Source: Candidatus Latescibacterota bacterium
GTDB lineage: Bacteria > Latescibacterota > UBA2968 > UBA8231
Length of the DNA: 64,000 nucleotides
Direction: 5' to 3'
Assembly: GCA_016187725.1 (NCBI GenBank)
Contig: JACPJE010000068.1
Span: 1 to 64,000 of the forward strand
Shown: piece after piece, positions 277 to 31,025 of the stretch
How positions within the stretch are numbered: position 1 is the first letter of the stretch
How the letters are laid out: each line of letters starts with the position of its first letter
The notes under the pieces: model-generated
Told to the model about the DNA's origin: nothing
Database searches by the model: none
Seen by the model: only the letters and a program-made list of their open reading frames with translations
Program-made: the position numbers and the translations under genes

Positions 277-2100
277 ATGTCGATGGGCAGGATGAGGGCC
301 CTGGCGCGTTTGTCCTTCTGGGTGCCGGCCCAAAAGCTGGTGGACTTTGAGGAGGACTACGAAAAACTTCTTGTGCCGCTGCTGAGAAAGCACGACATCG
401 AGGAAGCTGCCGAGCCCGGGCGGGCCACTGCCGAGGGGGTCTTTAGCCGGCTCTTTGAGATGGAGCAGCCGGACGCGGTGGAGGTCAAGGCCCGGGTCCT
501 GCGCCGGGACCCGGTCTGGCAGGCGATGCGGCAGGAGTTGGGCAGGGTGTTCGGGAATGCTGAGCCGGATGGGCGGCTGCGCTATTCCTTTGACCTGTAC
601 CGGGCGCCGGCCGGTCCAGGCCGGACCGTGGAGGTGGGGCCCGGGTACCGGCAGGGGCTGTGGCAGCGCTTCGAGTTCCAGGATGGTCTGCCGGTCTCTG
701 CCCTCCTCCACCTCCGGCAGGACCAACAGGGGGATCTGTGGCTGGCCAGTTGGGAGGGGATCTGGCGGTACGACGGGGAGCAAGCCACGGCGCTGACCAG
801 CGCGGACGGCCTGGTGGACGACGGGGTGATCTGCCAGTTGGAGGACCGGCAGGGGCGGTTGTGGGTCGGCACCGAGGGCGGCCTGAGCTGCCTCGATGGA
901 TCGCAGTGGACCAGCTACACCACCGCGGACGGGTTGGGAGACAACCGGGTGTGCGCGCTGCTGGAGGACCAGCAGGGGCGGCTGTGGATCGGCACCAGGG
1001 GGGGCCTGAGTTGCTTCGACGGCCCGCGCCTGGTGAACCGCACCACCGCGGATGGGCTGATGGACAACCGGGTGGAAGCGCTGCTGGAGGACCGGCAGGG
1101 GCGGCTGTGGGTCGGCACCGAGGGCGGGTTGAGCTGCCGCGCGGGCGAAGGCTTTGTCGCCGGTGCGGGCGCAGACGGGCCGATGGCCACTGGGGTGCAT
1201 TCCCTGCTGGAGGATCGCCAGGGGCGGCTGTGGGTCGGCACCTCCGAGGGAGTGTGTTGGTGGGACGGGAAAGGGTTCACCGCCCTGACTGCGGCGGAGG
1301 GTCTGGCCAGGGGGCAGGTGCTCTCCATGCTGGAGGACCGGGAGGGGCACCTGTGGTTCGCGACCTACGGGGGCGGGGTGAACCGGTACGAGGGCTCGCG
1401 CTTCGTCACCTTCACCGGGGCCGTGGCCCGCAAGCTAGGCAAGGTGGAGCTGGCCGAAGGGGGCACCCTGTTCCTCGACGAGATCGGGGATCTGTCCCTC
1501 GAAGCGCAGGCCAAGCTTTTGCAGTTGCTAGAGGAGAAAACCTACACCCGGGTGGGGGGGACCCAGACCCGGTCAGTGGATGCGCGGGTGATCGCGGCGA
1601 CCAACCGGGATCTGTGGGGCATGGTGCCGGCCGGCACCTTCCGGCCGGACCTCTACTTCCGGCTGCACGAGTTCCAGGTGGAGTTGCCGCCCCTGCGGCA
1701 GCGGCGGGAGGATATCGCCGAACTGGCCACCTACTTTGCCGCGCGCATGGCGGCCCACCTGGACAAGAAGATCGAGCGCTTTGCCCCAGAGACTCTGGAC
1801 CTACTCCAGGCCTATGGCTGGCCGGGCAATGTGCGCGAACTGGAGCATGCAGTGCAGCGAGCCGTGGTGGTATGCCCGGGTGAGGTGATCCGCCGCGAAG
1901 ACCTGGCTCTGGGGACGACTGGGCAGTCCTCGACAGAGGAAATCCTGCCGCTGGAGGAGGTCGAGCGGCGCCATATCCAGGAGGTGCTGGAGAAGACCGG
2001 GTGGGTGATCAAAGGGCCCAAAGGCGCGGCGGCCCTGCTGGGTGTACCGGCCTCCACCCTGCGGGACCACATGGAGAAACTGGGTATAGCCCGGCGCTAG
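277..2100 (+). CDS. Chimeric propeller / sigma54 AAA+ activator lacking Walker A
   Basis: 607 residues. Residues about 1-115 resemble a small dimeric alpha/beta-barrel (NIPSNAP or monooxygenase-like) domain. About 135-375 are near-identical 41-residue two-component-regulator propeller repeats (123-bp period, core R-L-W-V-G-T). From residue 379 the protein becomes the C-terminal part of a sigma54-interacting AAA+ domain: Walker B with D401-E402, the R-finger region and WPGNVREL, then a Fis-type helix-turn-helix to the end. The Walker A motif and the first part of the GAFTGA loop are absent. The switch falls on F-T-G-A (1411-1422), a string that occurs both in propeller repeats and in GAFTGA loops, so this looks like a deletion joint. 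ATP hydrolysis is not expected. A stretch of GGGGG precedes the ATG. Confidence 0.8.
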   Translation: MSMGRMRALARLSFWVPAQKLVDFEEDYEKLLVPLLRKHDIEEAAEPGRATAEGVFSRLFEMEQPDAVEVKARVLRRDPVWQAMRQELGRVFGNAEPDGRLRYSFDLYRAPAGPGRTVEVGPGYRQGLWQRFEFQDGLPVSALLHLRQDQQGDLWLASWEGIWRYDGEQATALTSADGLVDDGVICQLEDRQGRLWVGTEGGLSCLDGSQWTSYTTADGLGDNRVCALLEDQQGRLWIGTRGGLSCFDGPRLVNRTTADGLMDNRVEALLEDRQGRLWVGTEGGLSCRAGEGFVAGAGADGPMATGVHSLLEDRQGRLWVGTSEGVCWWDGKGFTALTAAEGLARGQVLSMLEDREGHLWFATYGGGVNRYEGSRFVTFTGAVARKLGKVELAEGGTLFLDEIGDLSLEAQAKLLQLLEEKTYTRVGGTQTRSVDARVIAATNRDLWGMVPAGTFRPDLYFRLHEFQVELPPLRQRREDIAELATYFAARMAAHLDKKIERFAPETLDLLQAYGWPGNVRELEHAVQRAVVVCPGEVIRREDLALGTTGQSSTEEILPLEEVERRHIQEVLEKTGWVIKGPKGAAALLGVPASTLRDHMEKLGIARR

Positions 2101-7603: not shown

Positions 7604-8782
7604 TCAGCGGCCCACGATGGGCGGCAGGTGGGTCACCGGACAGGCGCGGGGGGCCTTGACCGAATAGCCCATGTCGCCCAGCACGCAGCTGATCTGGGCT
7701 TCGAGTTTGAGCAGGTACTGCTGCTCCTCGGCGCTCATCAACTGGCGGGGCGGGCCCACCTCGAAGCCGCGCACCGCCACCCCGGTCTTGAACCCTTCCG
7801 GGAAGTTGACGCCCAGAAGCATGAGGTTGATCAGGTCGAGGATGCGGTATTGCAGGATGCGGGCCTGTTCCACCTGGCCGGCCAGGGCCTTGTTGTAGAT
7901 CTCCACGATCACCTCGGGGATGATCCCGGAGGTGGCGATGGTGCCGCCGCTGGCCCCCATCATCACCGAGGGAAAGAGGATCTCCTCGCAACCCACCAGC
8001 ACCACGTAATCGGGCCGCTGCGCCCGCAGCCGGTGCATGGTGTTGATCAGCCGGGGCAGGTCGCGGCTGGAGTCCTTGGTGCCCATGATGTGCTCGTAAG
8101 GCAATAACCTTTCCATCAGGTCCAGGGGCAATTCCTGGGTGAACTGGGGGATATTGTAGAGCAGGATGTCCAGGGGCGACTGGCGGGCGATCTCGGCGAA
8201 GTACTCGAAGAGGCTGGTGTTCGACATCTTGTAGTAATAGGGCGGCACCAGGGAGATGGCGTCCACCCCGATGGAGGCGTAGAACTCGGCCATCTGCAGC
8301 ACGTCGCGCAGGTTGGCCTCGCTGGCCCCGGCCAGGATGGGCACCCGGCCTTTGTTCACCTGGCAGATGAGCTTGACCACGTCCTGGCGCTCCTGCCAGG
8401 AGAGGCGCACGAACTCCCCGGTGCTGCCGTTGGGATAGAGCCCGTGGATGCCGGCCTGGATCAGCCATTCGATGTAGCGCTCCATCTCCGGGTAGTTGAT
8501 CTGGTCCTTTTCGTTGAGGATGACGATGTTGGGGCAGAGGATGCCCTTGAATTCCCGCTTGCCCGAGGTGGACGCCTTCCGGGGTGGCAGCACGGATGCC
8601 GGGGCCGGGGCGATGGCCGTCTCGGAGGCGGCGCGGCGCTGCACCTCTACCCCGTGGGCGCGCAGGTAGTCGAGGGCCGAGGGGGTGAGTTTGGAGTGGG
8701 GGCAGAGTTCGAGGGCCTTGTCGTTGCCCAGCCGGGCTTCCAGCACCTGGGCGGTGATCACGGGATCGTCTAGGCGGACCAT
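7604..8782 (-). CDS. BMC-associated DHDPS/NAL-family aldolase with EutT-like N-terminal module
   Basis: 392 residues. Residues 80-380 form a dihydrodipicolinate synthase/N-acetylneuraminate lyase-type TIM barrel with G119-S-T-G-E, Tyr209 (L-L-Y-N-I-P) and Schiff-base Lys236 (G-T-K-D-S-S). The family makes or splits 2-oxo acids through a lysine-pyruvate imine. Residues 7-48 form an extra module (V-I-T-x-x-x-L ... L-T-P-S-A-L-D-Y-L-R-A-H-G-V-E-V) like the start of EutT-type BMC proteins, joined by a Pro/Ala/Ser linker (about 51-75). The Cys-rich protein at 10513-10977 has the same module. In this position the module probably brings the enzyme into the shell. The likely reaction is retro-aldol cleavage to pyruvate plus an aldehyde; the substrate is unknown. 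Confidence 0.8.
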   Translation of the reverse strand: MVRLDDPVITAQVLEARLGNDKALELCPHSKLTPSALDYLRAHGVEVQRRAASETAIAPAPASVLPPRKASTSGKREFKGILCPNIVILNEKDQINYPEMERYIEWLIQAGIHGLYPNGSTGEFVRLSWQERQDVVKLICQVNKGRVPILAGASEANLRDVLQMAEFYASIGVDAISLVPPYYYKMSNTSLFEYFAEIARQSPLDILLYNIPQFTQELPLDLMERLLPYEHIMGTKDSSRDLPRLINTMHRLRAQRPDYVVLVGCEEILFPSVMMGASGGTIATSGIIPEVIVEIYNKALAGQVEQARILQYRILDLINLMLLGVNFPEGFKTGVAVRGFEVGPPRQLMSAEEQQYLLKLEAQISCVLGDMGYSVKAPRACPVTHLPPIVGR

Positions 8783-8794
8783 CTGCTATCCTCT

Positions 8795-9937
8795 TCAGTG
8801 AACCAGGCGTTCCGTCAGTTGGGTGTAGGGATGGGGAATCAGGTGGATGGCCACCAGCTCGCCGTATTTGGCCGCTTCCACGGCCCCGGCATCGAGGGCG
8901 GCCTGTACCGCGGCCACGTCCCCGCGGATGGCGCTGGCGGTCAGAAAGTAGCCCACCTTGTAGCTGCCTTCGTATTCGACATTGGCGGCCTTGAGCATCA
9001 GGTCCATGGCCTTGGCCAGGGCGATGCTGCTGCGGGTCTCGATCAGGCCCAGGGCCCGGCCAGCGCTGGGGCGTTCCACGCTTGGGCCAGGGGCGGCGAA
9101 GCAGGCCATCACTTCGGGGGCGGGGCGCGAGACCAGCCGGGCGGCATTGAGTTCGCCCACCTGGCGGGCGGCGGCAGTGCCGGCGTCCACCGCGGCCTGC
9201 ACGTCGTCGATATTGCCTTTGAAGAGCAGGGCCACCCGGCCACCGGTGCCGATATTGATGCGGCTGATCTCCACCTCGCCGGATTTGACCGCGGCGTCGC
9301 CGGCCCCCACCATGGCCACGTACCCGGTGGTCTCTATCACGCCCAGGGCCCCGCTGGACCGGGCCTCGCCCGCCGGGGGCGGGGGCAACATCCGGCCCAG
9401 GCCAGATGCCGGCTGGGGGATGAGCAGGGTGGCGATGACGTCTCCGCACTGGGCAGCGGCCAGGCGGCCCGCCTCCAGAGCGGTCTGCACCGCGGCCACG
9501 TCGCCGCGCGCGATCACGTGCACCAGGGCCCCGCCGATGGCGGCCCAGCCCTCGATGCTGACGGCCGCGGCCTTGGCCATGGCGTCGGCCCCCCCGATCA
9601 GCGGGGTCAGGCCCCGGGTCTCCAACAGCCCCAGGGCCTGGTTTCCCACCGGGCGGTCCTGGGAGCCAGTGCGGTGGGGCATGCCCTCCAGGCCCTCGGG
9701 CCGGGCGATCACCTCGGCGCTGATCAATTCCCCGTACTTGGCGGCTTCTTCCTGGCCGGCGCGCAGGGCGGCCTCCACGGCCGCCACCTCCCCTTCGACC
9801 AGGACCGTGACCCAGGCCGAGCCCACCCCGTGCCGGCCGCAGATCTCGACCTGGGCGGCCTTGACCATCACGTCGGCGGCCCCCACCAGGGCGGCCATGC
9901 CGCGCGTTTCGAGAATGCCGAGGGCTGGGGAACTCAT
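8795..9937 (-). CDS. Shell protein with four tandem BMC domains
   Basis: 380 residues from ATG 9937. Four complete Pfam00936-type BMC domains lie at about 5-80, 101-176, 197-272 and 295-370. Each opens with A-L-G-[LIV]-[IL]-E-T and ends in a short [IV]-x-x-P segment. The pore segments differ: GVGSA, AIGGA, NIGTGG and KVGYFL. Linkers of about 20 residues, one with four prolines (184-188 region), join them. Known shell proteins have one domain (hexamers) or two (pseudo-hexameric trimers); four in one chain is unusual. Three chains would supply twelve domains, two stacked or adjacent rings. It begins 8 bp after the BMC-T gene. Confidence 0.9.
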   Translation of the reverse strand: MSSPALGILETRGMAALVGAADVMVKAAQVEICGRHGVGSAWVTVLVEGEVAAVEAALRAGQEEAAKYGELISAEVIARPEGLEGMPHRTGSQDRPVGNQALGLLETRGLTPLIGGADAMAKAAAVSIEGWAAIGGALVHVIARGDVAAVQTALEAGRLAAAQCGDVIATLLIPQPASGLGRMLPPPPAGEARSSGALGVIETTGYVAMVGAGDAAVKSGEVEISRINIGTGGRVALLFKGNIDDVQAAVDAGTAAARQVGELNAARLVSRPAPEVMACFAAPGPSVERPSAGRALGLIETRSSIALAKAMDLMLKAANVEYEGSYKVGYFLTASAIRGDVAAVQAALDAGAVEAAKYGELVAIHLIPHPYTQLTERLVH

Positions 9938-9945
9938 CTGGGGTC

Positions 9946-10500
9946 CTAGCGCCGGCCAAATGCCTGCAGCACCTGCGGCACCGGCTGGGCGATAAAGGCG
10001 GAACCTAGAAACTTGGACGAAGCGGCGGCCAGTTCGCGGCCCACGGCCAGGGCCTCCTTGACCGCGCCCACCTCCCCTATGATCAGGGAGCAGACCACCC
10101 GGTTGTGGACGGTGAGCACGTTGGCCACCTCCACTTGGGCGGCCTTGACCATGCGGTCGTCGGCCAGCACCTGCAGGCCGTAGCCCTGGGTTTCGAGCAG
10201 GCCCAGGGCGCCGGAAACGGGTGCTATCTCCTTTTTGACAGGGACGGTGACGTAGTTGAAGCAGGCGGGTTCGGGCTGGTTGAGGGCGGCGGCACTCACC
10301 TTCTTGGATACCTGCCGGGCAGCTTCCTCGCCGCTGCGCAGGGCCGCGGCCACGGCGCTGATCGAACCAATAAAAAAAACCGTGGTGAACCCACCGATGG
10401 AATCCCAGCCCAGCAACTCCACCTCGGCGCTCTTGCAGGCCGCATCCGCCGCGACGACGATGCCCGCCACCCCTTCGACCTCGACCATGCCGATGGCCAT
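9946..10500 (-). CDS. BMC-T shell protein (two BMC domains)
   Basis: 184 residues with two BMC domains, about 1-80 and 95-175, opening M-A-I-G-M-V-E-V-E-G and A-L-G-L-L-E-T-Q-G. Such tandem-domain proteins form trimers with a pseudo-hexameric outline and often a larger pore. The two domains are more diverged from canonical BMC-H than the other shell proteins here. It lies between the Cys-rich gene (12 bp upstream) and the four-domain shell gene. Confidence 0.9.
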   Translation of the reverse strand: MAIGMVEVEGVAGIVVAADAACKSAEVELLGWDSIGGFTTVFFIGSISAVAAALRSGEEAARQVSKKVSAAALNQPEPACFNYVTVPVKKEIAPVSGALGLLETQGYGLQVLADDRMVKAAQVEVANVLTVHNRVVCSLIIGEVGAVKEALAVGRELAAASSKFLGSAFIAQPVPQVLQAFGRR

Positions 10501-10512
10501 GGACGCCCCCGT

Positions 10513-10977
10513 TCAGCGCGGTCCCAGGCGGCTCATCACCTGGGCGGCGATCTGGCGCACCAACTCCTCGCTCACCCCGGGCAGGACCGCCGCGCTCTTG
10601 TGGCGGTTGCAGCCCTGGCAGGCCGGGCCGCACCCGCCCTGGGCCTGGTGGATGGCGCACTGGCCGCAGGAGGCCGGCTCGACAAAGCCAGATCCGAACT
10701 CCTCGGTCTGGCAGCCGCAGGCCCGGTCGGGGTGGTCGCAGCGGCCCTCCTGCACCAGACTGGAGGGGGTGAGTTCGGGGATGAGGCCGGGAGAGGGCGC
10801 TGGTGCGGCTGGCGCGGGCCCGCGTATCACCTTGAGGCGGTGCTGGCGGATATAGTCCCAGCCCGTGGGGGTGATCACCGATCCGGGGAGCAGGCGCAAC
10901 TCCTCCTGGCCCTGGTGCTGCTGGCGCAGCAGGGCCTCGGTGATGATCGGGGCGTCGAGATGGCAGGCCCTGGACAT
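10513..10977 (-). CDS. Cys-rich BMC cargo candidate with EutT-like N-terminus
   Basis: 154 residues in three parts. Residues 9-52 resemble the start of EutT and of the aldolase in this operon (I-I-T-E-A-L-L-R ... I-T-P-T-G-W-D-Y-I-R). The middle has eight cysteines: C80, C87, C89, C104, C107, C116, C120 and C123, a spacing that could bind an Fe-S cluster or zinc. Residues 135-151 (VSEELVRQIAAQVMSRL) form an amphipathic helix like the encapsulation peptides on PduL and the aldehyde dehydrogenase here. I do not recognise an enzyme. A redox or cofactor role inside the shell is an inference. Confidence 0.7.
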   Translation of the reverse strand: MSRACHLDAPIITEALLRQQHQGQEELRLLPGSVITPTGWDYIRQHRLKVIRGPAPAAPAPSPGLIPELTPSSLVQEGRCDHPDRACGCQTEEFGSGFVEPASCGQCAIHQAQGGCGPACQGCNRHKSAAVLPGVSEELVRQIAAQVMSRLGPR

Positions 10978-10986
10978 GGCGCTGGC

Positions 10987-11250
10987 TCAGTTCAGCTTTT
11001 CCCTGAGCACCTCTACCGGGCGGGGGATCACGTGCACGCTGCGCAGTTCGCCCACCTTCTGGGCGGCCTGGGCCCCGGCGTCCACTGCGGCCTTGACCGC
11101 GGCCACGTCGCCTTCGACCATCACCGCCACCAGGCCTGCGCCCACCCGCTTCTGGCCGGCAAAGCTCACGTCAGCGGTCTTGAGCATGGCGTCGAGGGCC
11201 TCCACCACGCAGACCAGGCCTTTGGTTTCGACAATACCCAGTGCTTTCAT
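10987..11250 (-). CDS. BMC-H shell protein
   Basis: 87 residues, one canonical BMC domain ([11 protein letters not shown], pore segment R-V-G-A-G, end H-V-I-P-R-P). Such proteins form the hexameric tiles of the shell facets. It lies 9 bp upstream of the Cys-rich gene and 15 bp after the fused double-domain gene. Confidence 0.95.
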
Positions 11251-11265: not shown

Positions 11266-11829
11266 TCAACTCAGGAAGAGGTCGATGGTTTCGTCGCTGG
11301 GACGGGGGATGAGGTGGCGCGACACCAGCTCGCCCACCCGTTCGGCGGATTCGGCCCCGGCGCTGACCGCGGCGCTCACCGAGCCCACGTCGCCGGTGAC
11401 CAGCACGGTGATGTAGCCGCCGCCGATCTCGCGGATCTTCACCACCTCGACGCTGGCCGCCTTGCTCATGGCGTCGCTGGCTTCGATCACCCCGGTGGCG
11501 CCCCGGGTCTCGATCATGCCCAGGGCCCGCACACCCTTGGGGGCCTCGCCCCGGGCAGCGCGCGAGGGCAGGATGGCGCCCAATTCGCCGTGCGGGCGGG
11601 GGATCACGTGCACGCTGTGCACCTTGCCCACCTTGGCCGCGGCCTGGGCCCCGGCGTCCACCGCGGCCTTGACCGCGGCCACGTCCCCCTGGCAGAAGAC
11701 GGTGACCAGGCCGGCGCCCACCTTGTCCCAGCCCAGCAGGGAGACACTGGCCGCCTTGCTCATGGCGTCGCCGGCTTCGATCAGGCCAGCCAGCCCCACC
11801 GTCTCTACCATTCCTAATGCTTCTGCCAT
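11266..11829 (-). CDS. Fused double BMC-H-like shell protein
   Basis: 187 residues with two BMC domains at about 1-80 and 102-180. Both look like ordinary BMC-H (A-L-G-M-V-E-T-V-G and A-L-G-M-I-E-T-R-G, pores K-V-G-A-G and E-I-G-G-G) rather than the diverged halves of classical BMC-T proteins. A linker of about 20 residues with S-R-A-A-R-G joins them. Together with the four-domain protein it suggests repeated fusion of BMC-H genes in this locus. Confidence 0.9.
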
Positions 11830-11867: not shown

Positions 11868-12530
11868 CTATTTTTCCAGATACACCTTGCGGGCGCGGAC
11901 CAGGTCCACGGCGTTGCCTTCGTCCGTGTCCAGGTGCACCTCCAGTTTTTCCTTGCCGCTGACCCGGCAGATCAGCCCCTCCAGTGAGCCTCCCTGCTCG
12001 CTTTCGACCACCAGCCGCATCCGGTCGCCGGCTTTGACGCCGTAGTACTGGGCTTCGGCGGGGCTCATGTGCACGTGGCGGGCGGCGCGGATCACCCCAC
12101 AGCGCAGTTCCAGGCCGCCGGAAGGCCCCACCAGGTAGCAGCCGGGAGTGTCGCGGTGGTCGCCGCTGAGGCGCACCGGCGCGTCTATGCCCAGGAAGCG
12201 GGCGTCGGTGAAGGCCAGCTCCACCTGGCAGTACTCGCGCAGGGGGCCCAGCACCCGCACGTGGGCGATCATCTGCTGGCGCGGACCGAATACCGTGACC
12301 GCCTGCTCGGCGGCAAAGGCCCCCTCCTGGTACAGGGGTTTGAGCACCGTGAGCTGGGCGCCCTTGCCGAAGAGGGTCTCCAGGGCCTCCTGGTTGAGGT
12401 GCAGGTGCCTGGCCGAGATGTTGACCACCAGGCGCGGGGCAGCCGGGGCCGGGGCCACGCCCAACTGGGCCTGGAGGGCCTGGCGCACCAGCGCTTCGAT
12501 CTGCTGGTGGTCGAGCAATTGGGCGCTCAT
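11868..12530 (-). CDS. pduL: PduL-type phosphate propanoyltransferase
   Basis: 220 residues. The zinc-binding histidines of the PduL fold are present: R-H42-L-H44-L, R-H152-V-H154-M and H199 in V-H-L-D-T-D-E-G-N-A. It swaps CoA for phosphate on acyl-CoA and recycles CoA inside the shell. Residues 6-24 (LDHQQIEALVRQALQAQLG) form an amphipathic helix typical of an encapsulation peptide. The start overlaps the stop of the BMC-P gene by four bases (ATGA), so the two are translationally coupled. Confidence 0.95.
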   Translation of the reverse strand: MSAQLLDHQQIEALVRQALQAQLGVAPAPAAPRLVVNISARHLHLNQEALETLFGKGAQLTVLKPLYQEGAFAAEQAVTVFGPRQQMIAHVRVLGPLREYCQVELAFTDARFLGIDAPVRLSGDHRDTPGCYLVGPSGGLELRCGVIRAARHVHMSPAEAQYYGVKAGDRMRLVVESEQGGSLEGLICRVSGKEKLEVHLDTDEGNAVDLVRARKVYLEK

Positions 12531-12802
12531 CGCGCCTCCCTGTCGAGGTGTACGTGCTCAGCCCTGGCCAGGATCACCGCGTCCACGGCCAGGGGCGGGT
12601 CAAAGGCATTGACGGCCTCGCGGGCCACTTCCACCACCACCAGGTCGCCCTCGCGCATGGCCTGCCAGGTGGCGCTCACCTCCGGGTCGCCAATGGGCTG
12701 CAGGTCTTCGCCGAGATCCTCGATCAGGTGCAGGGCCTTGCCCGTGTACGGGGCAATGGCCTTGGAGAGGACCACGGTGCCGATGACCCGCGACAGTTTC
12801 AT
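12527..12802 (-). CDS. BMC-P vertex protein (EutN/CcmL family), copy 2
   Basis: 91 residues with the EutN/CcmL opening M-K-L-S-R-V-I-G-T-V-V and a C-terminal V-D-A-V-I-L-A segment. Family members form pentamers that close the corners of the shell. It lies 4 bp after another BMC-P gene. Three such genes in one locus suggest distinct vertices or mixed pentamers. Confidence 0.9.
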   Translation of the reverse strand: MKLSRVIGTVVLSKAIAPYTGKALHLIEDLGEDLQPIGDPEVSATWQAMREGDLVVVEVAREAVNAFDPPLAVDAVILARAEHVHLDREAR

Positions 12803-12806
12803 CCGC

Positions 12807-13103
12807 TCATCTCACCGGCAAATCGCGGCCAAAGGCCTGCAGGTTGTCGATGATGCCCACGATCACCGCGTCGGTGGGCACGTCGCCCATCTGCGGGGCG
12901 AAACGCGCCGAGCTGCCCATCACCACCAGCACCAGCTCGCCCTCGCCGGCGCCCACCGCGTCGATGCAGACCAGGTGGCGGCCGGTGGGCTCCAGGCCCT
13001 GCTCGCGCACGGTGATGATCTCCACCAGCAGGAGTTTCTTGCCGACCAGGTTCTGCAGCTTGGCCGTGGCGACCACGTGGCCCTTGACCCGCGACAGTAC
13101 CAT
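12807..13103 (-). CDS. BMC-P vertex protein (EutN/CcmL family), copy 1
   Basis: 98 residues, opening M-V-L-S-R-V-K-G-H-V-V-A-T and containing the pentamer-forming G-A-G-E-G-E-L-V-L-V-V-M-G-S-S-A-R and T-D-A-V-I-V-G-I-I-D. This is the standard EutN/CcmL pattern. It lies downstream of the aldehyde dehydrogenase gene, separated by a strong palindrome. Confidence 0.92.
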   Translation of the reverse strand: MVLSRVKGHVVATAKLQNLVGKKLLLVEIITVREQGLEPTGRHLVCIDAVGAGEGELVLVVMGSSARFAPQMGDVPTDAVIVGIIDNLQAFGRDLPVR

Positions 13104-13173: not shown

Positions 13174-14607
13174 TCAGGTGATGCGGAAATAATCCACCAA
13201 ACTGCAGCGGCGCTGGCGGGTGAAGGTGCGGGCCGAGGTCAACCCCTCTCCGGTGGGGCCGGCGATGGAGAAGGTACAGAACCCCTCCCCGCCGATGCCC
13301 ACCCCGCCGTAGGAAGGCCCGTTCTTGACGAAGATCGTGGTGTCCACGGCCCTGGCCATGTTGTGCATGTTCTCGATGTTGCGCGAGTGGATGATTGCCG
13401 TGTGCCGGTACCCGTGTTCGGACTCGATGGCCAGGCGGATGGCCTGCTCGACGTTGGGCACCCGGACGATGGGCAGGAAGGGCATCATCTGCTCTTCGTG
13501 GACGAAGGCGTGGCTGGCGTCGGTCTCGCCGATGAGCATCAGCACCTGCTCGTCGAGGTGGATGCCCACCCGCTGGGCCAGCACCGAGGCGTTGCGGCCT
13601 ACCAGCTCGCGGTTGACCACCAGTTCGCCCTTGGGACTTTTGACAAAGGCGTGTTTGGCCAACTCCTCGATCTGGGCGGGGGTGAGTTCGTAGCCGCTGT
13701 GGCGCACCAGGCGCGCCTTGAGTTCGTCGGCCACCGACTCGATCACAAAGACCTGCTTCTCGCCGATGCACAGGATGTTGTTGTCGAAAGCAGCCCCGGC
13801 GATGATGTCGCGGGCGGCCCGGTCGATGTCCGCGGTCTCGTCCACCACCACCGGCGGGTTGCCCGGCCCGGCGACGATGGCCTTCTTGGGACTGGCCATG
13901 GCGGCCTTGGCCACCCCAGGGCCCCCGGTCACCAAAAGCACCCGGATGCCCGGATGGGTGAAGAGCTGCTGGGCGCTTTCGATGGTGGGGGTCTCGATGG
14001 CGGTGATCAGATCGGCCGGCCCGCCCACCCGGGTGATGGCTTCGTTGAGCAGGCGCACCGCCCAGGCCGAGACCTTCTTGGCCGCCGGGTGCACGTTGAA
14101 GACCACCGAGTTGCCCGCGGCGATGATGCTGATGGCGTTGTTCACCAGGGTGGGCACTGGGTGGGTGGAGGGAGTCACCGCGCCGATCACCCCGTAGGGG
14201 GCCATCTCCACCACGGTCAGGCCGTGGTCACCGGTCCAGGAGATGGCCTCCAGGTCCTCGACGCCCGGGGTCAGGTCAGCGGCGGCGTAGTGCTTGCGGA
14301 TCTTGTGGTCCACCCGCCCCATGCCGGTCTCCTCCACGGTCATGCGGGAGGATTCCTCGGCCTTGCTGCGGATGGCCTGGCGGATGGCCTCGATGATCTT
14401 GCGGCGCTCCTCCAGGGTGCCCCCCACCAGGGCCCGCTGGGCGGCGGCGGCGGCGGCCACGGCCTCGTCCACGGTCTGGAAGACCCCGCCCGCCCCGCTC
14501 CTGCCCTCGCTGAAGCTGAGGGTGTTGCCGGCCACCACCCGGCCCACCACCTCCTGGACGATGCGGCGGATCTGCTCTTCGCTGACGTTGTGTGCCACCC
14601 CGTTCAC
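13174..14607 (-). CDS. BMC CoA-acylating aldehyde dehydrogenase (EutE/PduP type)
   Basis: 477 residues if GTG 14607 is the start. GTG 14598 is better placed behind GAGGTG and would give 474. The catalytic Cys280 lies in D-N-N-I-L-C-I-G-E-K, with G-P-G-N-P-P upstream, as in EutE/PduP enzymes that turn aldehydes into acyl-CoA with NAD. Residues 8-25 (VSEEQIRRIVQEVVGRVV) form an encapsulation-peptide helix. It supplies acyl-CoA for PduL. No alcohol dehydrogenase for NADH recycling is seen in this locus. Confidence 0.93.
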   Translation of the reverse strand: MNGVAHNVSEEQIRRIVQEVVGRVVAGNTLSFSEGRSGAGGVFQTVDEAVAAAAAAQRALVGGTLEERRKIIEAIRQAIRSKAEESSRMTVEETGMGRVDHKIRKHYAAADLTPGVEDLEAISWTGDHGLTVVEMAPYGVIGAVTPSTHPVPTLVNNAISIIAAGNSVVFNVHPAAKKVSAWAVRLLNEAITRVGGPADLITAIETPTIESAQQLFTHPGIRVLLVTGGPGVAKAAMASPKKAIVAGPGNPPVVVDETADIDRAARDIIAGAAFDNNILCIGEKQVFVIESVADELKARLVRHSGYELTPAQIEELAKHAFVKSPKGELVVNRELVGRNASVLAQRVGIHLDEQVLMLIGETDASHAFVHEEQMMPFLPIVRVPNVEQAIRLAIESEHGYRHTAIIHSRNIENMHNMARAVDTTIFVKNGPSYGGVGIGGEGFCTFSIAGPTGEGLTSARTFTRQRRCSLVDYFRIT

Positions 14608-14707: not shown

Positions 14708-14737
14708 GGGCGCTATTTCTTTGGGCGCTATTTCTTA
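14708..14737. repeat. 15-bp tandem duplication over a BMC-H stop codon
   Basis: GGGCGCTATTTCTTT (14708-14722) and GGGCGCTATTTCTTA (14723-14737) are direct repeats differing at one base. The second holds the stop codon of the BMC-H gene (14728-14730, minus strand). This is a small slippage duplication with no coding effect visible. Confidence 0.75.
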
Positions 14738-15006
14738 TTGATGGGAAGGATGCTTTCGAGACTGGGGTGCGGCCGGGGGATGACGTGGACCGCCAGCACC
14801 TCCCCCACCCGGCGGGCAGCGACCTGGCCGGCCTCGGTGGCGGTCCGCACCGAGGCCACGTCGCCGCGCACCAGCGCGGTGACCAGGCCCCCGCCGATCT
14901 GCTGCCAGCCCACCACCGCCACGTCGGCGGCCTTGACCATGGCGTCCATGGCCTCGATGAGAGCCACCAGCCCGCGGGTTTCGATCATGCCCAGTGCGTC
15001 GCCCAT
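14728..15006 (-). CDS. BMC-H shell protein, first gene of the BMC operon
   Basis: 92 residues with one canonical BMC domain: [12 protein letters not shown], pore Q-I-G-G-G, end H-V-I-P-R-P, then a short tail. It is the first gene after a sigma70-type promoter at 15029-15057 and lies 120 bp before the aldehyde dehydrogenase gene. It faces the FAH gene across a shared promoter region. Confidence 0.95.
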
Positions 15007-15028
15007 GCTGCCCTGTTTTTGATTTGAG

Positions 15029-15138: not shown

Positions 15139-15942
15139 ATGCGCATCATCCGCTTTATCGACGAGCAGGGCCAGACCCGCCTGGGCGAGGAAAGCGGCCC
15201 GGGCCAGGCCGCGGTGCTCAAGGGGGATTTGTTCGGCAGACTGGAGCGCAGCGGCCAGAGCGCCGCAGTCAAAAAGCTGCTGGCCCCGGTGACCCCTCCC
15301 AATATCCTGTGCATCGGCCTGAACTACCGCGAGCACGCCGCCGAGTCGGGGGCCAAGATCCCCGATTACCCGGTGCTCTTCATGAAGCCCAACACCGCCC
15401 TCAACAACCCCGGGGACCCCATCCGCCTGCCGGCCTGCCAGGTCGATGCGGAGGTGGATTACGAGTGCGAATTGGCCGTGGTCATCGGCAGGACCTGCCG
15501 CGACGTGCCCGAAGCCAAGGCCCTGGAGTACGTGCTGGGCTACACCGCGGCCAATGACGTGTCGGCGCGCACCTGGCAGATCAAGCGGGGCGGCGGCCAG
15601 TTCGTGCGCGGCAAGGGCTTCGACACCTTCTGCCCCCTGGGGCCGGCCCTGGTCACCGCCGACGAGATCCCCGATCCCCAGGCCCTGCGGCTCAAGACCC
15701 TCCTCAACGGCAAGGTGATGCAGGACCACACCACCGCGGACATGATCTTCCCGGTGGCGCACCTGGTCAGCTTCCTCAGCCAGGACACCACCCTGCAGCC
15801 GGGCACGGTGATCCTCACCGGCACCCCCCAGGGCGTGGGCTTCGCCCGCAAGCCCCCCGTCTGGCTGCAGCCCGGCGACGAGGTGGTCATCGAGGTGGAG
15901 AAGATAGGAAGGTTGGTGAACCTGGTGGGGGCTAGTCGATAA
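15139..15942 (+). CDS. Fumarylacetoacetate hydrolase (FAH) family protein
   Basis: 267 residues from ATG 15139 behind TGAGGAG. FAH signatures are clear: [11 protein letters not shown], the metal ligands in [17 protein letters not shown] and [10 protein letters not shown]. The family hydrolyses or decarboxylates 2-oxo or diketo acids, including diketo-3-deoxy sugar acids to pyruvate and a hydroxyacid. Divergent from the BMC operon and overlapping the end of a BMC-P gene by 11 bp, it very likely works in the same pathway. The exact substrate is unknown. Confidence 0.88.
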
Positions 15943-16186
15943 TCCCCACGATCACGCTGCGCACCGCCGGGGCCTTGACCCCGGTCACTTGGCCCCCGGC
16001 GATGCCCGACTCGCTGACCACCACCTGGCTGCCGATGCCGGCGCCCACCCCGTCGATGGCCAGCTGCATGGGCACCGTGGGATCATTCACACCCTCCAGG
16101 CCGGAGACCACCAGGATCTTCCGGCCTTCGAGGATGGGGTGCTTGACCGTGGTCACCACATGCCCGATGACCTTGCACATTCTCAT
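15932..16186 (-). CDS. BMC-P vertex protein (EutN/CcmL family), copy 3
   Basis: 84 residues: [29 protein letters not shown] and S-V-I-V-G-I-I-D, the EutN/CcmL pattern. A second Met at 16180 is an equally possible start. It is separated from the main operon by the FAH gene, whose end it overlaps tail to tail. Confidence 0.88.
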
Positions 16187-30630: not shown

Positions 30631-30713
30631 CCCCGGTCGCTACTCCCGCCTTGTCCCCGCCCTCTCCTGGGGCTATTTTTTTGCCCTACAACCCCTGTGC
30701 CAGAGAAGGTGAA

Positions 30714-30900
30714 ATGAAGAGGACGGCCATCGGCCTGATCGAACTGTCCAGCATCGCCGCCGGCTTTGCCGTGGCCGACGTGTTGCTCAAGGCCGCCATG
30801 GTGGAACTGCTGATCAACCGCACCATCTGCTCGGGCAAATACCTGATCCTCATCGGCGGGGAAGTGGCGGCGGTGGAAGCCAGCCTGGCCGCCGGGGTGG
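30714..30900 (+). pseudogene. Truncated BMC-T/BMC shell gene fragment
   Basis: From ATG 30714 the frame gives one BMC domain start: A-I-G-L-I-E-L-S-S-I-A, A-D-V-L-L-K-A-A, Y-L-I-L-I-G-G-E-V-A-A-V-E-A-S. This is the first half of a BMC-T of the type near PduT. After V-G-V it runs into unrelated sequence and stops at 30980. The second BMC domain is missing. It is not part of the main BMC locus. Confidence 0.7.
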
Positions 30901-30907
30901 GGGTCGG

Positions 30908-31025
30908 CGGCAGTGCTCCTACTGCACCGAACTGTGCCCCCGCTACCTGTTGGGCTACCAGGTGGAGCCCCACAAGGTGATGCGCGACCTGGGCTTCACC
31001 CTCTCGGGGCTGGTCGCCAGTTTGC
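30908..31025 (+). pseudogene. PduS-like Fe-S protein fragment
   Basis: In a second frame 30914-31025 encodes C-S-Y-C-T-E-L-C-P-R-Y-L-L-G-Y and V-E-P-H-K-V-M-R, the ferredoxin-like segment of PduS/RnfC-type proteins, which pair with BMC-T shell proteins. Only about 40 residues survive. The frame continues without a stop into the TPR gene, so the fragment supplies the 5' end of that open frame. Confidence 0.7.

Follow-up and report, generated by a model that had tools for sequence, protein, structure and literature searches.

In catalogues of BMC shell proteins, facet proteins carry either one or two PF00936 domains and form sixfold or threefold pores (PMC8217296, PMC4207490). Hexagonal tiles of mixed subunits are also on record, as in the CcmK3/CcmK4 and CcmK1/CcmK2 hetero-hexamers, which are built from separate single-domain chains in variable stoichiometry; a 2:4 ratio has been reported for CcmK3/CcmK4 (PMC6788708). 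No description of a chain with more than two BMC domains was found in the open-access literature, and a report elsewhere is possible; one candidate (PMC10710832) was rejected because the "four" there refers to four proteins. Here, we report Q, a genuine BMC facet protein of old origin with four domains, together with its two-domain neighbor T, both encoded in a 64,000-nucleotide stretch of a Candidatus Latescibacterota contig (the window).

Pfam found four PF00936 domains in Q (whole-protein E value, 2.2e-76), each scoring 67.5 to 81.9 bits (cut-off, 24.5) and covering 75/75 profile positions (Table 1); chance is excluded as the source of this match. The three linkers are about equal in length (medians, 22, 20, and 21 amino acids [aa]), like those of two-domain BMC proteins at these loci (median, 21 aa). 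The four pore segments (GRHGIGSGW, GWxxIGGALxH, RLxIGSGGR, and YEGxYKVGYFLTA) differ from one another, and each is conserved. A helix lysine is kept in all four domains (K26, K122, K218, and K316), is invariant across aligned homologues, and corresponds to the edge residue K26 of PduA. The initial annotation, made from the letters alone, had read four full BMC domains with four different pore segments in one polypeptide and had stated that known shell proteins have one or two; the profile search that it proposed gave the same count, the pore segments proved distinct, and the catalogues agree with its comparison.

Table 1. Coordinates of the T-Q locus and its surroundings in the window (aa, amino acids)
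Feature	Position (nt)	Strand	Residues	Evidence or remark
PF00701 (DHDPS/N-acetylneuraminate lyase superfamily) aldolase	7604..8782	-		Pfam E 4.8e-56
Q, four-BMC-domain shell protein	8795..9937	-	380 aa, 38.4 kDa	Pfam 4 x PF00936; 24 intact homologues; dN/dS; ATG at 9937, stop at 8795
Q D4	8828-9055	-	aa 295-370	PF00936
Q D3	9122-9349	-	aa 197-272	PF00936
Q D2	9410-9637	-	aa 101-176	PF00936
Q D1	9698-9925	-	aa 5-80	PF00936
T, two-BMC-domain protein	9946..10500	-	184 aa, 18.9 kDa	2 x PF00936 (Pfam)
X154, Cys-rich protein	10513..10977	-		aldolase-like N-terminal tail
BMC-H, single domain	10987..11250	-		PF00936 E 8.7e-26
DD, tandem of two BMC-H-like domains	11266..11829	-		2 x PF00936 E 3.6e-52
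PduL-type phosphate propanoyltransferase	11868..12530	-		PF06130 E 2e-65; NF011652 above cut-off
BMC-P (EutN/CcmL) pentamer protein	12527..12802	-		PF03319 34.0 bits (cut-off 25)
BMC-P (EutN/CcmL) pentamer protein	12807..13103	-		PF03319 E 1.4e-26
Metabolosome-type aldehyde dehydrogenase	13174..14607	-		PF00171; NF011927 665 bits (cut-off 403)
BMC-H, single domain	14737..15027	-		PF00936 95.7 bits
BMC-P (EutN/CcmL) pentamer protein	15932..16186	-		PF03319 E 7.6e-19

Profile, fold, and context all place Q among BMC shell proteins: PF00936 lies above its curated cut-off, the AlphaFold model (pLDDT, 89) gives single-domain Foldseek matches that include EutM and PduA (mostly 0.6 to 1.8 Å), and the operon in the window encodes BMC-P, BMC-H, and metabolosome enzymes. 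The domain number that defines BMC-H (one PF00936 per chain) and BMC-T (two) was tested and differs from the four of Q, which also scored 77.5 bits with the PduT model TIGR02526 (cut-off, 250.3); we therefore class Q with the BMC shell proteins but with neither BMC-H nor BMC-T. Its best NCBIfam match was CcmO, a tandem of BMC-H-like domains from the beta-carboxysome, at 250.5 bits, a sum over four domains that falls below the curated cut-off of NF053792 (270); CcmO has two domains, and Q has no carboxysome context. The names CcmO and EutM were both rejected for Q because NCBIfam whole-protein scores are inflated by its four domains, and EutM is in addition a single-domain family.

As the window comes from a MAG of 292 contigs, conservation in relatives was needed for judging Q. 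Searching with the window protein detected Q in 26 of 47 genomes that belong to the same class; the records of close relatives carry the labels Handelsmanbacteria, Latescibacterota, or Gemmatimonadetes MAGs. In 24 genomes (46 to 91% identity to the window), the four-domain open reading frame (ORF) is intact, essentially full length, and free of internal stops; two of these are single-contig assemblies (G018 and G024), and all 21 distinct loci that were read completely have one ORF with four domains. Q is interrupted by a contig end in G012 and survives as a lone fragment at a contig start in G019. In G008, a 780-contig MAG, it is split 3+1 (L064:9339-10512), domains 1 to 3 occupying one ORF and domain 4 another, with the frame broken in linker 3 and an ATG for domain 4 a few bases further on; this is either a sequencing error or a natural split. 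In comparisons with three congeneric relatives, dN/dS over the whole Q ORF was about 0.16 to 0.22.

Fusion of separate genes by a collapsed repeat, a missed stop, or misassembly could be suspected from the fragmentation of the window's MAG and from the 3+1 split, yet it retains next to no probability: the 24 independent intact copies, single-contig assemblies among them, rule it out, and the low dN/dS argues against it as well. The initial annotation had named two outcomes that would overturn its reading, namely, a missed stop or collapsed repeat between domains 2 and 3 and homologues that are always separate two-domain genes. Neither came about, since its proposed search for four-domain relatives returned full-length homologues without internal stops, and the one divided copy is split 3+1. 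Outside the class, no four-domain match was found in about 640 genomes, including none at an E value of ≤1e-36 among the other genomes of a 386-genome sample and none at 1e-30 in 297 genomes of another phylum, a search that lacked a positive control and proves little.

Among 207 BMC domains taken from these loci, a tree placed Q1, Q2, Q3, Q4, T1, and T2 in one clade each across genomes, with few exceptions (pieces from G008 and G012, labeled differently). Because each Q domain has its own clade, all four must have been fused before these genomes diverged, and on this phylogeny, the fusion is old. Mean identity of each Q domain was 41 to 49% to the BMC-H class and 33 to 42% to the other Q domains, so that Q looks like BMC-H-type domains strung together, not a doubled BMC-T; a recent duplication of a BMC-T was rejected on the same grounds. 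Pairwise means were 35% for D1/D3 and 42% for both D2/D4 and D1/D2; D1/D3 and D2/D4 are thus not especially alike and give no sign of a duplicated BMC-T.

The nearest PDB entries to Q have two domains at most. The best match by sequence (1.3e-33) was 6ner, an engineered tandem BMC-H fusion, which was also the best fold match over two domains, adjacent domains of the Q model superposing on both of its domains with TM scores of 0.87 to 0.90. Both are strings of BMC-H-like domains, but 6ner is man-made with two near-identical domains, whereas Q is natural with four divergent ones. BMC-T(s) trimers (two PF00936 domains, e.g., PduT and HO-5812) share with Q tandem BMC domains and a facet-type fold and match two of its domains by sequence; however, Q has four domains, and its chain alone cannot close one ring. 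Nor do modeled Q domain pairs superpose on natural BMC-T pairs, which fit one domain only (rmsd, ~15 to 17 Å). The fold search suggests that Q domains follow one another round a ring as in 6ner, not as in natural BMC-T, an order on which we do not build because the 6ner chain assignment between identical domains may be arbitrary.

T lies directly upstream of Q in the window, 8 nucleotides (nt) away, and is a third fusion of the locus that was overlooked in the initial annotation. That annotation did describe the two fused BMC-H-like domains of DD, borne out here by two PF00936 matches, and its suggestion that fusion is a theme of the locus holds for Q, DD, and now T. The DD domains average 49 to 57% identity to BMC-H or to the other DD domain class, and this natural two-domain fusion resembles the engineered 6ner; DD and a BMC-H have been duplicated together in genomes such as those of loci L060, L062, and L063. 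Orthologues of T (E value, ≤1e-50) were found in exactly the 26 Q genomes and in no others among 64 of the phylum, and T adjoins Q directly upstream in 26/26. Among the loci read, T and Q overlap at a TGATG in four and by 8 nt in eight, and a gap of 7 to 12 nt separates them in the remainder; because the whole operon is compact (most intergenic gaps are −4 to 15 nt), the junction taken by itself is modest evidence. In the f4 genomes, T, Q, and the aldolase are separated from the remaining BMC genes (two BMC-H and three BMC-P), which lie on another contig, and the three f4 genomes checked had no two-domain BMC protein other than T. This arrangement makes T, not DD or the BMC-H of the locus, the constant partner of Q. 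The f4 loci (L048, L049, L050, L053, and L058), each with a lone T-Q-aldolase trio and a minimal BMC set elsewhere, may offer a small model shell.

Since whole chains of four domains cannot by themselves close a six-membered ring, either three Q chains would make two rings or one Q chain would take up two further domains. The most likely working form of Q, with about an even chance of being right, is a pseudohexameric tile of one Q chain and one T chain, proposed because two domains plus four make six. In its full form, which we hold to be just short of an even prospect, T and Q would be a 1:1 heterodimer forming one complete hexagonal tile, with D1 to D4 and T1 to T2 as six nonidentical, ordered domains around a single asymmetric pore. 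The four Q domains would lie next to one another in a single body, which T would fill out, and the fusions would fix order and stoichiometry, as is impossible for separate BMC-H paralogues. The six monophyletic domain classes are consistent with six fixed positions, and the CcmK hetero-hexamers follow the same idea, except that their stoichiometry varies where that of T:Q is proposed to be fixed by fusion.

AlphaFold, run on Q with 21 homologues, placed the four domains confidently relative to each other (pLDDT, 89.3; pTM, 0.88). T and Q share a frame in two relatives, which made a tethered model possible; the T-Q read-through chain of a close relative gave a pLDDT of 88.1 and a pTM of 0.87, with pLDDT under 50 at the artificial joint only. 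Of the five T-Q models, two were of poor quality (pLDDT, 69.5 and 64.0), and the alignment covered T by two rows only; alignments with added T rows (A2, A4, and A5) were misaligned and kept out of modeling. These predicted bodies, from which we infer a closed ring, support the T:Q tile without proving it, and AlphaFold would probably arrange any set of six BMC domains as a ring. T could also form its own trimer, and the co-occurrence of T and Q in one class may be due in part to the locus being inherited as a whole.

The initial annotation rightly set a four-domain chain apart from the one- and two-domain kinds; the geometry that it attached, three chains and twelve domains arranged as a double ring or a bridge between tiles, found little support and ignores T, upstream of Q in every genome. 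For the double ring, three Q chains would form two covalently tied rings, [D1D2]3 and [D3D4]3, stacked face to face as a covalent counterpart of the BMC-T double-stacked trimers that do exist (PMC8217296); twelve domains are two whole rings, and a 20-aa linker could span the step. Such stacking would lead one to expect a special D2-D3 linker, and its length is unremarkable; the D1/D3 and D2/D4 identities do not stand out from that of D1/D2, Q is modeled as one confident body, and the obligate partner T is left unexplained, all of which makes this arrangement unlikely. Q might instead staple neighboring tiles of one layer, with D1-D2 in one and D3-D4 in the next, as domain arithmetic allows and as the edge-type lysine in every domain might favor; a fixed lattice register would be required, and with equal linkers and a single confident body in the model, we regard this as highly doubtful.

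T might also form ordinary BMC-T trimers, with Q completed by the BMC-H or DD of the locus in a 4+1+1 or 4+2 tile. The Q domains are most closely related to those of BMC-H and DD, which are encoded in the same operon, but in the f4 genomes, neither lies near Q, whereas T always does, and no DD-type protein was found in those f4 genomes that were checked; this composition is accordingly improbable. If the preferred T:Q tile is true, a natural protein of four domains and its obligate partner of two would constitute a new class of tile; this facet tile would lack rotational sequence symmetry, in contrast to the hexamers and trimers described to date. Domain numbers per chain would then not be restricted to divisors of six, and each of the six pore positions could be set separately, by evolution and by engineers. 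Q and T also bear on the way in which paralogous shell subunits are allotted to their tiles, as in hetero-hexamers.

The aldolase, the third member of the constant trio, lies downstream of Q wherever the contig continues; it has an N-terminal tail of about 70 aa, and the lysine motif GTKDSS is present in all copies. PF00701 superfamily enzymes split 2-keto acids into pyruvate and an aldehyde. If this one does so, the aldehyde would pass through the aldehyde dehydrogenase and then PduL, and the T:Q tile, located in the facets of the metabolosome, would be a pore, possibly a gate of this aldolase-based compartment, or a docking site for the aldolase substrate or enzyme. The genes examined included no identifiable alcohol dehydrogenase or cofactor enzyme. 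X154 matched nothing in Pfam or NCBIfam, is kept in all loci having the main operon, and has a conserved motif (GRxxHPxxxxGCxxxEFGSGxVxPxxCxxC).

Two further features of the window were observed. At 277-2100 (plus strand), regulator-propeller repeats run directly into a sigma-54 activator domain that matches positions 77-167 of the 168-position profile only (the C-terminal half); its nucleotide-binding half seems to be missing, as in a remnant or an odd chimera. A further BMC-domain ORF (30651-30980, plus strand), covering 61/75 profile positions, lies 15 kb away on the strand opposite to the operon.
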